Shown: piece after piece, positions 185-6,416 of the stretch
How positions within the stretch are numbered: position 1 is the stretch's first letter
Layout of the letters: each line of letters starts with the position of its first letter
NCBI GenBank assembly: GCA_001803565.1
Contig: MHDQ01000243.1
Span: 1 to 6,416, forward strand
Direction of reading: 5' to 3'
DNA length: 6,416 bases
Source: Nitrospinae bacterium RIFCSPLOWO2_12_FULL_45_22
GTDB lineage: Bacteria; 2-12-FULL-45-22
Position numbers and translations under genes: made by a program
Notes under the pieces: generated by a model
What the model was told of the DNA's origin: nothing
Databases searched by the model: none
The model's input: only the letters and a program-made list of their open reading frames with translations

Positions 185-1162
185 CTAGATATGGAATTCT
201 ATAATGTCTCCCTCTTGAAGGATATAATCTCTATGGACCATTTGACCGGCATATTTATCTTTACCCCATATCCTGGCAAATTTTAATCTTTCAGCAAAAT
301 CTTTATGGATAGATTGGCCCACATCAACTACATTACTTCCTTTCTTCATTGCCAGCGGTTCATTGTAGTTTGCCTCTTTACCCGGGGCCCTGGTATATAC
401 CCGGACAATATCCAGTGCGTTATATATTTGATTTTTTAGCTCCTCCAGGTTAATGCCTTTCTCAGCAGAAACAGGAACGATAGAATATCTTTCCCCATAT
501 AATTCCTGCAGGACGGTTAAGTTTTCCTGGCTCCCTGGTAGATCAGCCTTGTTAGCCACTATTAAGGTCTTTTTATAGCTTGCTCCTCCTTGCGTACCTT
601 TTCCTTCCAATTCTATCCTTGCTTCCCTCAGTATTTCTTTAACCGTCTCTATCTGTTCCAGAAGGTCTTCTGCGCTTAGGTCTATAACAAGTAATGTCAG
701 ATCAGCCTGCTTAATGATACCTGGCAGCCATGATTCCATATATTCTCTAGATATAGGGGGGAGGTCTACCAGTTGGATCTGAACATTCTCATACTCTATC
801 ATACCCGGAAGAGGGGTGCGGGTGGTGAAGGGATAATCGGCTACCAAGGGATTGGCCTTGGTCAGCCGACTTAGTAGCATTGATTTGCCAACATTAGGCG
901 GCCCTATCAGGACTACCTGGCCTATCCCTTCCCGCTTCAGATGCCCAGGGCCACTTTTTCTGCTAGTGGCCTTTTTCTTTTGTAACTCTGCCCTTAGCTT
1001 TGATAGCCTTTTCTTTAAATCGGCCTGGAGTTTCTCGGTGCCTTTATGCTTTGGCATAATAGCCAGCATTTCTTCCAGGCTGGCTATTTTATCGGGAGTG
1101 GTCTTGGCCTCGCGGTACCGCCTTTCAGCCTCCAAATATTGCGGTGGTAAATTTGCTGGCAT
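185..1162 (-). CDS. TGS-domain GTPase of the DRG/Obg type
   Basis: This is a cytoplasmic P-loop GTPase of the TRAFAC/OBG class, a group usually tied to ribosome or RNA binding; its exact role is unknown. Numbering from the upstream ATG at 1174, a charged helical N-terminus (about 6-75) precedes G1 GPPNVGKS (91-98), a TT-containing G2 (117-120), G3 DLPP (137-140), G4 NKAD (208-211) and G5 SAE (236-238). A TGS domain fills about 257-329 (GSNVVDVGQSIHKDF, ending GDIIEFHI). G3 has Pro where most relatives have Gly (DxxG). I chose the ATG at 1162, giving 325 residues: the protein then begins MPANLPPQYLEAE, as I recall for relatives, and GGGA lies 4 nt upstream. The ATG at 1174 has AGGG directly abutting it, which is too close. 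The gene begins 22 bp after the intI stop on the same strand and shows no promoter of its own, so read-through from intI is likely. Confidence 0.9.
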   Translation of the reverse strand: MPANLPPQYLEAERRYREAKTTPDKIASLEEMLAIMPKHKGTEKLQADLKKRLSKLRAELQKKKATSRKSGPGHLKREGIGQVVLIGPPNVGKSMLLSRLTKANPLVADYPFTTRTPLPGMIEYENVQIQLVDLPPISREYMESWLPGIIKQADLTLLVIDLSAEDLLEQIETVKEILREARIELEGKGTQGGASYKKTLIVANKADLPGSQENLTVLQELYGERYSIVPVSAEKGINLEELKNQIYNALDIVRVYTRAPGKEANYNEPLAMKKGSNVVDVGQSIHKDFAERLKFARIWGKDKYAGQMVHRDYILQEGDIIEFHI

Positions 1163-1184
1163 ATATTCCCACATCCCTAATTGG

Positions 1185-2138: not shown

Positions 2139-2191
2139 ATACCAGGCTCCTTTCAGTATTTTGAGGTTTCAATATTATATCTTTCCCCTGT

Positions 2192-2219
2192 ATTATAGCT
2201 AACTTAGGAAAAATAACAA
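2192..2219 (-). promoter_or_regulatory. Promoter of intI (PintI)
   Basis: On the minus strand, TTGTTA (plus-strand 2214-2219) and a perfect TATAAT (2192-2197) are separated by 16 bp. The -10 lies about 54 bp before the intI ATG, which has its own AAGGAG ribosome site. I found no CTGT-N8-ACAG or GAAC-N4-GTTC LexA box overlapping it. The prediction rests on hexamer matches alone. Confidence 0.6.
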
Positions 2220-2223
2220 AAAA

Positions 2224-2240
2224 ATTAGTATTGTACTAAT
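2224..2240. promoter_or_regulatory. 7-3-7 palindrome upstream of PintI, candidate operator
   Basis: ATTAGTA, TTG, TACTAAT form a perfect inverted repeat (2224-2230 with 2234-2240). It lies 4 bp upstream of the PintI -35 box, between intI and attI. That position suits a regulator of integrase expression or of transcription toward the cassettes. The inner AGTA-TTG-TACT loosely recalls LexA operators of the cyanobacterial AGTAC-N-GTACT style but is shorter. AT-rich DNA raises the chance of fortuitous palindromes. Confidence 0.4.
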
Positions 2241-2344
2241 ATAAAACTGCTGATAGAGAATATAGCCCAAAATTTTATATTATTTTCAGCATTACCTTTC
2301 CCCATATGACAATTATCCTTTACCAAATATTTTATCTATGTGAT

Positions 2345-2414
2345 AATGAATACAGCATATTTTTTGTCACAGTAATATATCTCTGCAGATAGACAATATA
2401 ATTAAAGGTTAGTG
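2345..2414 (+). other. attI: attI recombination site (core GTTAGTG at 2408-2414)
   Basis: The right boundary is firm. GTTAGTG at 2408-2414 fits the GTTRRRY core and is the exact reverse complement of the R'' box CACTAAC of the first cassette's attC, as expected when a cassette has inserted here. Recombination falls between G2408 and T2409. The left boundary is a guess based on the usual attI length of about 65 bp. I cannot convincingly identify the inverted L box or accessory direct repeats in the AT-rich sequence to its left, though GACAAT occurs twice (2308-2313 and 2392-2397). Confidence 0.68.
2397..2402 (+). promoter_or_regulatory. Candidate -10 box of a cassette promoter (Pc)
   Basis: A perfect TATAAT lies just left of the recombination point, so transcription would start near 2409 and read into cassette 1. 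No good -35 hexamer lies 16-18 bp upstream; TTGTCA at 2364-2369 is 27 bp away, which is too far. In such AT-rich DNA a lone -10 match is weak evidence. Confidence 0.28.
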
Positions 2415-3478
2415 TCCGAACGGAAATCACCATGTTTGATGATGAGAAATTTGACAAATATGAGTATAAGAACATACCTCTAAATCGAGATTGTTATCTC
2501 GTTGATGAAAAATACGCCGCAGAGTATGAATCTATGTATATAGGGGTCTTTCAAGGTCAAGACTGGAAACCTATTGGATATGTGAGCTTTATTGCTGTAA
2601 GGGCGGTACATGAAAAATCGATTGAACTGTCGTGGTACCCGAATACCTATGATCGTTTTCATGAGATGTGTATCTTTTTGCCAAAAAGCAAAATCAATCA
2701 ATGTATTGGATGCTGGCAGTGGGAATGGAAACCTACTATATTTGTTGAATCTAACTGGCTAAATGATCTCCACGCAAAAGCCTTTTCGGTTTTCGGTATA
2801 GTGGACGCTGTCGGAGTAAGGAAAGCAATACAAGATGAACTACTTTCAAGAGAGAAATTGCTGGAACTAAGATTCAAAATCGACCACCTATCTTCAAAAT
2901 ATCTAGACATCTCATTCATTTCATTTGCCGATAGTATCTTGATCAAGAGCAATTGGACAGTTGGTTCAGTACACAATGATCTATCTTACACATATCGGCC
3001 AGAGGCTTTTATTGAGGTCGCACAACAATTCCAGATAATTTTTCGTGAAACCCTTGGTTTGGACTGCTATACGATATTGACCCAAGGGTATAACGAATAT
3101 TACGATGATGATCTGCTACATATTTCGGAAACGAAAAATCATATTTCGCTCAATAGCCTCGGCGTTCCATTCGCTCAGCTCCTGTCAATCGAAAAATCAG
3201 TTCGGGAAGCAATAAAAAACGGTATTCATCCACCCTCTGAACTCTATCTCGATCAGACATTTTATCATTCTCTTCATCTACGGCATGACTACAATAAAAA
3301 TAATCGTCCTAAAGCAGCATATAAACCTATCATGTCAGAAAAACCAGCTCACTATTTTTACGCAGATTTGCAGACAATTGTAAATAATCTTAAAGGGGAG
3401 GAATAAGCACCAAATTAGTTAAAACACTAACCCTGGGTTCAAGGCGGACCCAAACTACCGGGCCGCTTAACCCAATCG
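2409..3478 (+). mobile_element. Integron gene cassette 1
   Basis: This 1,070-bp unit starts at TTAGTG, immediately after the cut in attI, and ends at the G of GTTATGC in attC1. Joining its ends restores GTTAGTG, which pairs 7 of 7 with its own R'' box CACTAAC (3425-3431), so the excised circle would have a perfect attC core. It holds one gene in the cassette orientation. The start codon lies 23 bp inside the left end and the stop lies 18 bp before attC1, the tight packing expected of cassettes. Confidence 0.85.
2432..3406 (+). CDS. Cassette-borne protein of unknown function, faint cyclase-like fold
   Basis: I do not recognise this 324-residue protein. No signal peptide or membrane segment is evident, so it is probably cytoplasmic. 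The N-terminal half (about 1-130) is rich in Tyr, Trp and charged residues and has Cys91, Cys94, Trp95 and Trp97 close together. A helix at about 128-150 leads to a strand-rich stretch with ISFADSILIKSNW (162-175), then a helix (190-208), TQGYNEYY (217-224) and NSLGVPFAQLLSIEKS (241-256). The order FxDS strand, helix, strand, then G-x-x-x-xAxxLxxxE loosely resembles the second half of class III nucleotidyl cyclase domains (GD hairpin, then the VNxAARLE helix). The substrate-binding residues are not recognisable, so a degenerate relative is at best possible. The start has only a weak GGAA ribosome site (2422-2425), 6 nt before ATG. It carries no clear promoter and probably relies on transcription through attI. 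Confidence 0.82.
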   Translation: MFDDEKFDKYEYKNIPLNRDCYLVDEKYAAEYESMYIGVFQGQDWKPIGYVSFIAVRAVHEKSIELSWYPNTYDRFHEMCIFLPKSKINQCIGCWQWEWKPTIFVESNWLNDLHAKAFSVFGIVDAVGVRKAIQDELLSREKLLELRFKIDHLSSKYLDISFISFADSILIKSNWTVGSVHNDLSYTYRPEAFIEVAQQFQIIFRETLGLDCYTILTQGYNEYYDDDLLHISETKNHISLNSLGVPFAQLLSIEKSVREAIKNGIHPPSELYLDQTFYHSLHLRHDYNKNNRPKAAYKPIMSEKPAHYFYADLQTIVNNLKGEE

Positions 3479-3484
3479 TTATGC
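3425..3484 (+). repeat. attC: attC1 recombination site of cassette 1
   Basis: The R'' box CACTAAC (3425-3431) and R' box GTTATGC (3478-3484) enclose an imperfect hairpin. GGGTT (3435-3439) pairs with AACCC (3469-3473), AAG (3441-3443) with CTT (3466-3468), CGG (3445-3447) with CCG (3463-3465), and CCC (3449-3451) with GGG (3460-3462), closing an 8-nt loop. C3440, G3444 and A3448 remain unpaired, all on the left arm. That polarity is what IntI uses to choose the bottom strand. GGGTTCAAG...CTTAACCC closely resembles the L''/L' arms of aadA-type attC sites. The cut falls between G3478 and T3479. Confidence 0.88.
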
Positions 3485-3505
3485 ACGCCCATAAAAAATT
3501 TCCGC

Positions 3506-3534
3506 TTGACATATTACGTGTAACGTAATATCAT
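3506..3534 (+). promoter_or_regulatory. Promoter of the higBA cassette
   Basis: A perfect TTGACA (3506-3511) and TATCAT (3529-3534, five of six consensus bases) are separated by an ideal 17 bp. The expected transcription start is near 3541, which is the A of the higB start codon, so the mRNA may be leaderless. A 21-bp inverted repeat fills the spacer. Confidence 0.8.
3511..3531. promoter_or_regulatory. Inverted-repeat operator, likely HigA binding site
   Basis: ATATTACG (3511-3518) and CGTAATAT (3524-3531) are perfect 8-bp arms around TGTAA. The repeat lies between the -35 and -10 boxes and overlaps the end of each, so a bound protein would block RNA polymerase. HigA antitoxins are known to repress their own operons through such palindromes. 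That HigA binds this one is inferred from position. Confidence 0.7.
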
Positions 3535-3540
3535 CCATGT

Positions 3541-3819
3541 ATGATAAAATCATTTGCCTGCCGAGATACTGAAAAATTGTTTAACGATAAACGAGTTCGC
3601 CGTTTTCAATCTTTTGAACGGCAGGCAAGAAAAAGGCTTATGGTTCTTCATGCTGCTCCAAGCCTTAAAGCACTGATGCTGAATCCAGGTAATAGATTTC
3701 ATGCCCTAATGGGAGATCGAAAAGGACAATATGCCATAAGCATTAATAAGCAATGGCGTGTTTGTTTTGGGTGGCATGAAGGCAATTCATATAATGTACA
3801 AATAACCGATTATCACTGA
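3541..3819 (+). CDS. higB: HigB toxin, RelE-superfamily mRNA interferase
   Basis: HigB toxins bind the ribosomal A site and cut mRNA during translation, stopping growth until neutralised by HigA. This 92-residue protein has the usual full length. Residues expected at the active site are in place: His54 (NRFHAL), Arg73 (KQWRVCF) and the C-terminal Asp90-Tyr91-His92 (ITDYH). These match positions I recall for the Proteus vulgaris HigB, so the toxin looks functional. A basic N-terminal half (KRVRRFQSFERQARKR) could contact rRNA. The start at 3541 has no Shine-Dalgarno sequence and coincides with the predicted transcription start. The ATG at 3537 is out of frame and soon meets a stop. HigA follows, with its ribosome site overlapping the higB stop, so the pair is translationally coupled. 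Toxin-first order is typical of higBA. Confidence 0.93.
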   Translation: MIKSFACRDTEKLFNDKRVRRFQSFERQARKRLMVLHAAPSLKALMLNPGNRFHALMGDRKGQYAISINKQWRVCFGWHEGNSYNVQITDYH

Positions 3820-3828
3820 GGTGCCATG

Positions 3829-4164
3829 ATGAGTACGAAAAAATTTCTTGATCCAATTACTCCGGGTGAAATACTGCGTGAGGACTTCATGGAGCCATTG
3901 GGCATCACTATCAATCAGCTTTCTCGGGATCTGGCTGTGCCGCCGAATAGAATAAGTGAAATTGTTAACGGTAAACGAGCCATCACGGCTGATACGGCTT
4001 TAAGATTACAGCGCTATTTTGGAGTTGAAGCTCAATTTTGGCTCAATTTGCAGTCTGAATATGATCTAAGAATCGTGAGGCGAAAGATTTGGAATGAGCT
4101 TGAACAACGAATTATTCCAGTACAAAATCCGAAGGCAGAACTTGTTCATAAGGATATTGCATAA
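3829..4164 (+). CDS. higA: HigA antitoxin, XRE-family helix-turn-helix protein
   Basis: HigA binds and inactivates HigB and represses the operon as a dimer. After an N-terminal segment with the family signature ITPGEILREDFMEPLG, a helix-turn-helix lies at about 27-50 (INQLSRDLAVPPNRISEIVNGK), followed by TADTALRLQRYFG and FWLNLQ, also characteristic of the HigA/VapI group. The C-terminal basic and acidic helix is longer than in minimal HigA proteins but within range. I chose the second of two tandem ATGs (3829, giving 111 residues): GAGG at 3818-3821 is 7 nt from it but only 4 nt from the ATG at 3826. The GAGG overlaps the higB stop TGA (3817-3819). The stop codon TAA (4162-4164) lies inside the attC2 R'' box GCATAAC, so the cassette has no spare sequence after the gene. 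Confidence 0.93.
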   Translation: MSTKKFLDPITPGEILREDFMEPLGITINQLSRDLAVPPNRISEIVNGKRAITADTALRLQRYFGVEAQFWLNLQSEYDLRIVRRKIWNELEQRIIPVQNPKAELVHKDIA

Positions 4165-4216
4165 CCTTGCTCTTTCAGCCGATAGCTAACCGCTACGGCT
4201 GAAGAGCCTGTTGGGC
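4159..4216 (+). repeat. attC: attC2 recombination site of cassette 2
   Basis: The R'' box GCATAAC (4159-4165) and R' box GTTGGGC (4210-4216) flank a long hairpin. GCTCTT (4169-4174) pairs with AAGAGC (4202-4207), CAGCCG (4176-4181) with CGGCTG (4196-4201), and TAGC (4183-4186) with GCTA (4192-4195), with loop TAACC. The only unpaired stem bases are T4175 and A4182, both on the left arm, giving the expected attC polarity. The sequence is unlike attC1 although the fold is the same, so the cassettes came from different sources. It could be mistaken for a terminator, but it has no T-run and carries proper core boxes. Confidence 0.85.
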
Positions 4217-4459
4217 CGCTTGCCACAATTTGTAGTGGCCCGCAAACTCGCAATCACCGCGCAAATAGAGCGAAGAGTGCGGGGTAGCTTAACCGTCTGA
4301 TATAGCGCTTGACGATGTAATAGCGGCTCAACATCCAAAGAGAAAATACTCGGTTCCATCTTTTCTGGGTGCGGCGGAGGCGGTCACTAGAGCAACCGCC
4401 TCCTTGCGTTAATTGACCAAGAGATCACAACAGGGGATTCCAGGAAGGAGATATTCGTC
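4217..4459. other. Non-coding region between last attC and glycosyltransferase gene
   Basis: I see no convincing gene here. Structures visible are a GCCAC/GTGGC hairpin (4222-4239), an imperfect long hairpin at about 4239-4283 (CCCGC with GCGGG, ACTC with GAGT, GC with GC, with small bulges), and a strong 9-bp hairpin at 4376-4403. The second structure has an attC-like bulged shape but no RYYYAAC/GTTRRRY flanks, so it is not called attC. TTGACG at 4309-4314 has no matching -10. A promoter for the downstream gene is expected but was not identified. Confidence 0.6.
4376..4403. terminator. GC-rich hairpin, possible terminator or leader structure
   Basis: GGAGGCGGT (4376-4384) pairs perfectly with ACCGCCTCC (4395-4403) around a 10-nt loop. 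No T-run follows on either strand (plus strand continues TTGCGTTAATT), so intrinsic termination would be weak. It may end read-through from the cassettes or be a structure in the 5' leader of the glycosyltransferase gene 57 bp downstream. Confidence 0.4.
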
Positions 4460-6416
4460 ATGGACCACAGCCCAACCCATTCAACCATCAATCGCATTGC
4501 CTTTATCGGCAACTACCTGCCGCGCCAGTGCGGCATCGCTACGTTCACCACCGACTTGTGCGAAGCCATCGCGACCGAATACGGTGACACAACGTGCATC
4601 GCCCTGCCCGTCAACGACGTCGAGCCCGGCTACGCCTATCCGGCCCGCGTTCGATTTGAACTGACAGAGAAGGACATCGACTCTTATCGCCGCGCCGCCG
4701 ACTTTCTGAATATCAACAACGTCGACCTCGTGTGCCTGCAATTCGAATATGGCATCTTCGGTGGGCGGGCAGGTAGTCATATCCTGGCCCTCTTGCGCGA
4801 ATTGCGCATGCCCATCGTCACGACCCTGCATACCATTCTGCAAGACCCTGACCCCGATCAACGCCGGGTGTTGGACGAAGTCGCCGCCCTGTCCGATCGG
4901 TTGCTCGTCATGAGTGAGCGCGGCGCGGAATTCCTGCAGGAGGTCTATGGGGTGCTGCCAGAGAAGATTGATCTGATCCCGCACGGCATCCCCGATTTGC
5001 CGTTTGTGGACCCGAGTTTCCACAAAGACCTGTTTGGCGTCGAGGGCAAAATCGTCTTGCTCAGCTTTGGATTGCTCTCGGCGAACAAAGGGATCGAAAA
5101 CGTCATCGCCGCCCTGCCCACCATTTTGGCCCGCTATCCGAACGTGGTGTACATCATCCTCGGCGCGACCCATCCCCACGTCAGGCGGCTCGACGGCGAA
5201 ACGTATCGGCTGTCCCTGCAATGGATGGCCCAAGAGAAAGACGTGGAAAGTCACGTGATCTTCTACAACCGATTCGTCAGTCTGGAGGAGCTTGTTGAGT
5301 TCATCGGCGCGGCGGACATTTACATCACGCCTTATCTGGACGCGGCGCAGACCGTCTCTGGCACACTGGCCTACACACTGGGGGCAGGCAAGGCGGTGAT
5401 TTCGACGCCGTATTGGTATGCGGAAGAGATGCTGGCCGAGGGACGGGGAGCACTGGTGCCGTTCCGTGATCCCGCGGCGTTGGCCGAGCAAGTGATAGAC
5501 CTGTTGGACAACGAGGCCAAGCGCCACGCCATGCGCAAGCAAGCCTATTTGTTTGGGCGGGAGATGATCTGGCCGCAGGTGGCGCGCCGCTACATGGAGA
5601 GTTTTGAGCGCGCCCGAGCCGAACGCCGCCATTTCACGCCCCCCGGCTTCACGGTCAAAGCGCTGGACGAACGTCCGGGCGAACTGCCCCCCCTCAAACT
5701 CGATCACTTACGCTACATGACGGACGAGACGGGCATATTGCAACACGCCATTTTCACTGTGCCCAACTATCGTGAGGGCTACACCACCGACGATAACGCC
5801 CGTGCCCTCATGGTGAGTGCCCTCCTGGAGGAACTGGGCAACGGCGAGGCCTTCGAACTGGCTTCCCGTTACCTCGCCTTCATCTGGTATGCCTTCAATA
5901 CCGAGACCGGACGCTTTCGCAACTTCATGGATTACCAGCGCCACTGGCGGGAAGATCGCGGTTCCGACGACAGCCACGGCCGCACGTTGTGGGCATTGGG
6001 CACCGTGTTGGGCCGCTCTAGCACGCCAGCTCTTCCCAGTATGGCTGGCCGGTTGTTCGAGCAGGCCTTGCCCGCCATTCTCGGCACGACCAGCCCACGG
6101 GCCTGGGCCTTCGCCCTCATCGGCATCCACGAGTATCTAAGGCGGTATGCCGGTGACCGCAGGGCCAGCCAGGTCCGGGAGGAATTGGCCGGGCGGCTGG
6201 TGACGTTGTATCAAAGCCATCGCTCGGACCAATGGCGCTGGTACGAAGAAGGGCTGACCTATTGCAACGCCGCGCTGCCTCATGCCTTGCTCATGTGTGG
6301 CCAATCGATACCGAATAAAGCAATGGCCGAGGCCGGGCTGGAGTCGCTCAGTTGGCTGGCCGACTTGCAGCGCGCTGAAGAGGCTGGGGGTCATTTTGTC
6401 CCCATCGGATCCAACG
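4460..6416 (+). CDS. Family 4-type glycosyltransferase fused to a toroid domain (3' partial)
   Basis: The frame stays open for 652 codons to the right edge with no stop. Residues 1-390 form a GT-B fold of the GT4 type, which moves a sugar from an activated donor to a glycan or lipid acceptor. Visible are an N-terminal FIGNYLPRQCGIATFTTDL loop (15-33), QFEYGIFGG (94-102), TTLHT (121-125), IPHGIPD (173-179), FGLLSANKGIENVI (203-216) and the donor-site region AADIYITPYLDAAQTVSGTLAY (284-305), with TPYWYAEEM after it. Residues from about 410 (HLRYMTDETGILQHA, GYTTDDNARALM, GSDDSHGRTLWALG) look like an alpha/alpha-toroid domain as in some glycan-processing enzymes; its role is unknown. No signal peptide is seen, so it probably acts in the cytoplasm. 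The start is set by GGAAGGAG ending 9 nt before ATG. The gene is distinctly GC-rich with G/C-ending codons, unlike everything to its left. The long open frame on its complement (4481-5707) is a composition artefact. Confidence 0.88.
   Translation, partial: MDHSPTHSTINRIAFIGNYLPRQCGIATFTTDLCEAIATEYGDTTCIALPVNDVEPGYAYPARVRFELTEKDIDSYRRAADFLNINNVDLVCLQFEYGIFGGRAGSHILALLRELRMPIVTTLHTILQDPDPDQRRVLDEVAALSDRLLVMSERGAEFLQEVYGVLPEKIDLIPHGIPDLPFVDPSFHKDLFGVEGKIVLLSFGLLSANKGIENVIAALPTILARYPNVVYIILGATHPHVRRLDGETYRLSLQWMAQEKDVESHVIFYNRFVSLEELVEFIGAADIYITPYLDAAQTVSGTLAYTLGAGKAVISTPYWYAEEMLAEGRGALVPFRDPAALAEQVIDLLDNEAKRHAMRKQAYLFGREMIWPQVARRYMESFERARAERRHFTPPGFTVKALDERPGELPPLKLDHLRYMTDETGILQHAIFTVPNYREGYTTDDNARALMVSALLEELGNGEAFELASRYLAFIWYAFNTETGRFRNFMDYQRHWREDRGSDDSHGRTLWALGTVLGRSSTPALPSMAGRLFEQALPAILGTTSPRAWAFALIGIHEYLRRYAGDRRASQVREELAGRLVTLYQSHRSDQWRWYEEGLTYCNAALPHALLMCGQSIPNKAMAEAGLESLSWLADLQRAEEAGGHFVPIGSN

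Follow-up and report, generated by a model that had tools for sequence, protein, structure and literature searches.

What kind of element lies between positions 2408 and 4216 of this contig, and how much do short matches within it tell us about its boundaries? The stretch analyzed here (the window) comprises all 6,416 nucleotides given for contig MHDQ01000243.1 of Nitrospinae bacterium RIFCSPLOWO2_12_FULL_45_22. From the sequence alone, the original prediction had proposed a two-cassette integron in which each cassette begins with a core that pairs perfectly with the R'' box of its own attC site.

The window carries a complete integron

From left to right, the window contains a C-terminal coding tail, a gene for a DRG-type GTPase, intI, an attI region, cassette 1, attC1, cassette 2, attC2, and a glycosyltransferase gene (Table 1). 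This arrangement is almost certainly a complete, ordinary integron made up of intI, attI, and two cassettes. Such an element is a standard gene-capture platform whose mechanism is already established, so that the integron, while genuine, is of modest significance: it adds a clean, base-exact example from a phylum represented here by two genomes.

Table 1. Features of the integron and its left flank (positions are those of the window)
Feature	Positions	Strand	Basis or remark
DRG-type GTPase gene, with TGS domain	185-1174	-	
intI, integron integrase, 317 aa	1185-2138	-	TIGR02249, 467.9 bits (cut-off, 265); transcribed away from the array
attI region, AT-rich, 27% G+C	2139-2408	+	Ends at the G of the core; 67.5% identity with L070 over 2219-2410
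attI direct repeat, copy 1; putative accessory integrase-binding repeat	2237-2264	+	28 nt; spacing, 136
attI direct repeat, copy 2	2373-2400	+	82% identity with copy 1
attI/cassette 1 core GTTAGTG, crossover G^TT	2408-2414	+	Exact reverse complement of 3425-3431
Gene cassette 1, 1070 bp	2409-3478	+	Limits given by core and attC1
Cassette 1 ORF, 324 aa, orphan	2432-3406	+	No database match
attC1, 60 nt	3425-3484	+	R'' CACTAAC, 3425-3431; R' GTTATGC, 3478-3484; model and folding
Gene cassette 2, 732 bp	3479-4210	+	Limits given by attC1 R' and attC2
Candidate sigma-70 promoter in cassette 2, TTGACA-17-TATCAT	3506-3534	+	11/12 consensus matches; consensus only
HigB-like (RelE-type) toxin gene, 92 aa	3541-3819	+	PF05015, E = 7.2e-13
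HigA antitoxin gene, 112 aa	3826-4164	+	TIGR02607, 114.5 bits (cut-off, 47.7)
attC2, 58 nt	4159-4216	+	R'' GCATAAC, 4159-4165; R' GTTGGGC, 4210-4216; model and folding

Directly past attC2, the G+C content rises to 59.4% (positions 4217 to 6416). This high-G+C segment could be a foreign flank, a large cassette, or a false join. The array might continue past 4216, with the glycosyltransferase region as a very large third cassette, or a false join might lie there in the contig. The G+C value favors this reading, since it exceeds those of all 106 two-kilobase windows sampled from the genome (mean, 45.9%; maximum, 55.2%), and the best glycosyltransferase relatives that we found belong to genomes outside the phylum. 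However, the attC covariance model described below detected no attC in the window after 4216, and there was no sign of a join error. We regard this reading as possible but not favored, and it would add to the two-cassette integron rather than replace it.

The integrase is intact, and first cassettes vary beside related attI sites

The intI product matched the integron integrase family TIGR02249 over its full length and aligned end to end with VchIntIA/IntI4 (2A3V) over 313 residues, including the R, K, HxxR, H, Y region. Together, the family score and this continuous alignment identify the protein as an integron-type integrase with the IntI-specific region. In the adjoining DNA, a GTT core stands at the start of the first cassette (GTTAGTG at 2408), as expected of an attI site.

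Two relatives allowed the attI side of this boundary to be compared. At L070, which carries an integrase fragment 80% identical to that of the window, the similarity of the attI region ends inside the core at 2408, although a gapped alignment scored more permissively shows weak similarity continuing past the core. At L003, whose integrase is 78% identical, the attI region has the same TAAGGTT ending, which is also found at L070, while the rest of the region aligns poorly. Had the cassettes failed to vary beside the same flank, the original prediction would have been undermined; instead, the first cassettes of both L003 and L070 differ from that of the window, in a comparison of relatives whose integrases are 78 to 80% identical rather than of strains of the same species. 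Each of these cassettes also has a 7/7 core/R'' pair of its own (GTTAGGG/CCCTAAC at L003 and GTTGGGC/GCCCAAC at L070). The attI region of L070 contains 33-nt direct repeats at a spacing of 137, close to the layout in the window. Relative to shuffled sequences, the L070 repeat is clear (30/36; shuffle maximum, 23), and the repeat in the window is marginal (26/36; shuffle maximum, 25).

Neither of two LexA-like patterns (CTGN10CAG and GAACN4GTTC) occurs in the attI/intI upstream region, the one match lying inside higB, so SOS control is unsupported by these patterns.

It could be argued that the cassettes are real but fixed, and that the integron is a relic that no longer recombines. Several intI pseudogenes and fragments are indeed present in the same genome, and one survey classed almost a third of intI genes as pseudogenes (PMC2426708). 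Nevertheless, intI in the window is full length, its catalytic region aligns to 2A3V, and the stem and boxes are intact in both attC sites, all of which make a relic unlikely.

Both cassette cores pair exactly with their own R'' boxes

Within the complete two-cassette integron, a script check confirmed the pairing that had been proposed. The cassette 1 core GTTAGTG (2408-2414), which occurs only once in the window, is the exact reverse complement of its own R'' box CACTAAC (3425-3431), and the same is true of the cassette 2 core GTTATGC (3478-3484) and its R'' box GCATAAC (4159-4165), with 7/7 positions matching in each case. The linear R''/R' pairs are poorer, with 4/7 matches in attC1 and 5/7 in attC2. 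The explanation offered for this difference was right: linear pairs mismatch because the first bases of the next element complete the R' of each attC. When folded with DNA parameters, the bottom strands of the circle forms had stems closed by seven pairs, at -15.3 kcal/mol for attC1 and -20.1 kcal/mol for attC2, relative to -11.7 and -15.5 kcal/mol, respectively, for the linear-array forms.

Since AAC and GTT are fixed by the search, each pair contains four informative positions. When real R'' boxes were reassigned among the real cassettes, 5 to 7% of cassettes had a 7/7 match by chance, so a result of two out of two would arise by chance in ~0.3 to 0.5% of cases. Both R'' boxes also depart from RYYYAAC, which makes the 7/7 match more telling.

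The attC sites stand out from background

A covariance model (R1) was trained on 22 attC sites from other arrays; three of these sites lie on a different contig of the same genome and none in the window. The stem covaries strongly in the training alignment, from which the structure was also derived, with 9/11 pairs changed on both sides and 94.5% paired. Used as a substitute for an integron finder, the model returned attC1 (41.6 bits, E = 1.4e-8) and attC2 (28.5 bits, E = 1.5e-5) on the + strand as its top and only strong matches in the window. Scores on the - strand were only 7.5 and 12.5 bits, indicating that both sites have one orientation (+), and the next-best matches were the opposite strand of attC2 (12.5 bits) followed by background. 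Dinucleotide shuffling of the 2.3-kb region 300 times produced no attC-like hairpin of 50 to 70 nt with AAC/GTT boxes. Other DNA of this genome and of a same-order relative, 161 kb with the strands counted separately, likewise contained none of that length. The covariance model, the shuffles, and the other DNA thus agree that the attC calls do not represent chance hairpins, as the original prediction had held. A search of the window against Rfam at gathering thresholds gave zero matches.

Although a weak terminator-like call on the - strand overlaps attC1, it is very unlikely that the hairpins represent terminators of transcription or chance palindromes whose 7-mer matches are coincidental, given the model E values, the absence of such hairpins from the shuffles and other DNA, the low chance of two 7/7 matches, and the adjoining intI.

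Perfect core/R'' pairing is a general feature of cassettes

The same comparison was made in 45 cassettes that each lie between two called attC sites, mostly in the arrays of relatives but also on C304 of the same genome and on one contig of a same-order relative. The core matched its own R'' at 7/7 positions in 23 of these, compared with 4/45 for the linear pairs, and shuffling the R'' boxes gave a mean of 3.2 and a maximum of 8. Elsewhere in the same genome, 17/33 cassettes had the 7/7 match, against 0/33 linear pairs (R'' shuffles: mean, 1.7; maximum, 7). Perfect pairing is therefore a general cassette feature that is visible in about half of cassettes and follows from cassette circularization, and the pairing in the window restates it. 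The matches reported for the window were real and correctly interpreted, but their importance was overstated. They support the two boundaries, but since 7/7 pairing is common rather than universal, the absence of a match would not refute a boundary. With this reading, a core that matches its own R'' can serve as supporting evidence for the limits of cassettes in fragmented metagenome-assembled genomes (MAGs).

Proposed recombination and expression of the cassettes

By analogy with the established mechanism, the IntI tyrosine recombinase would cut the bottom strand of a folded attC opposite G^TT of GTTNNNN, and the cut attC would be joined to a second attC or, at the 2408 core, to attI. If cassette 1 or 2 were excised, the resulting circle would have TTAGTG or TTATGC after the retained G, such that the R'' and R' belonging to one attC would pair at 7/7 positions; such circles could be reinserted at attI. 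Cassette 1, which lies beside attI, would probably depend on an upstream Pc promoter, whereas cassette 2 appears to carry a promoter of its own, and its HigBA module may stabilize the array, since cells from which the array is lost would be killed.

One cassette encodes an orphan and the other a HigBA module

The 324-amino-acid ORF of cassette 1 had zero matches in Pfam, NCBIfam, PADLOC, the PDB, viral contigs, and plasmids, and an AlphaFold prediction made with no alignment was unusable (mean pLDDT, 32). Cassette 2 is, as judged from its gene families, a HigB/HigA type II toxin-antitoxin module, with the toxin gene (PF05015) preceding the antitoxin gene (TIGR02607) in the order typical of HigBA. 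The HigA stop codon falls within the attC2 R'' box, and the promoter-like site lies upstream of higB. TIGR02607 has been named among the commonest cassette functions (PMC7370490). More HigBA-like pairs were seen on attC-bearing contigs of the same genome (C125, L122:967-444; C228, L092:3325-2753).

Profile searches of the two cassettes found no resistance family match. A class 1 mobile integron, which would have resistance cassettes and be carried on a transposon or plasmid, is not indicated by these results or by the neighboring genes, which encode a DRG-type GTPase and a glycosyltransferase, although a mobile carrier may lie farther out than this short contig reaches.

Integron components are scattered through the genome

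The genome, a MAG, totals 3.67 Mb over 321 contigs and is 85% complete. The DRG-type GTPase and the existence of archaeal integrons had raised the possibility of an archaeal host, which the full-length bacterial 16S rRNA ruled out. Both of the two genomes examined from this phylum encode an integron integrase that scores over the family cut-off.

With 150 of 370 candidates scored, the covariance model gave at least 69 attC matches (E up to 1) on about 36 contigs of this genome. attC2 was absent among the matches listed in this search and was found in the unfiltered search of the window. Most of the 69 matches have no nearby intI. A second intact intI lies on C304 with its own array, and several partial copies are also present, some of which stop at contig ends. 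The intI pseudogenes on C136 (L084:6130-6725) and C317 (L086:6156-5561) share a 596-bp stretch at 83% identity and the same deletion of about residues 128 to 270; their similarity stops just outside the gene, and their flanks differ. C287 carries a third copy, which is shorter and comes from the 3' part.

This genome-wide content of attC and intI is more interesting than the pairing in the window, though it has precedent: archaeal MAGs can contain up to 107 attC sites (PMC9668308), and about a fifth of integron-bearing lineages have more than one intI (PMC2426708). Tentatively, and as a conjecture that we consider rather doubtful, the window may be one node in an unusually scattered integron system of a poorly known bacterial phylum. 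Besides two intact integrases and the partial copies, such a system would have cassettes at tens of places, perhaps exchanged among several attI platforms, and a shortened intI derivative would have been copied to two or more unrelated sites.

Comparison with known integrons

Sedentary chromosomal integrons of the Vibrio cholerae superintegron type resemble the integron described here in their divergent intI, attI, attC-bearing cassettes, HigBA cassettes (PMC7370490 cites two higBA loci in the superintegron of V. cholerae), and many attC sites per genome. In contrast, the array in the window is short, with two cassettes; the attC sites of this genome are heterogeneous and spread over about 36 contigs; and the host belongs to a sparsely sampled phylum. 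Clusters of attC sites without an integrase (CALINs) in MAGs, for example, those of archaea (PMC9668308), likewise place many attC sites on many contigs of one MAG, whereas the contig studied here has its own intact intI, and its host has a bacterial 16S rRNA. Like attI1 of class 1 integrons, which has two direct repeats (PMC2727003), the window attI has direct repeats upstream of the core, although these are 136 bp apart, are likened to attI1 by layout rather than by sequence, and have a putative binding role.

Other observations

At L069, an ORF that by eye resembles a LexA repressor adjoins an intI fragment. The coding tail at positions 3 to 104 of the window, PITQVYADEIGADAYGRDALDALEKAHKLINNH, may resemble the end of corrinoid-binding proteins. 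The 3' end of the GTPase gene (window positions 186 to 548) recurs in the same genome at C73:7594-7956 (locus L109) with 96.4% identity. The two copies diverge at the stop codon, and contig C73 ends inside the gene; the C73 copy may be a second copy or a strain variant.
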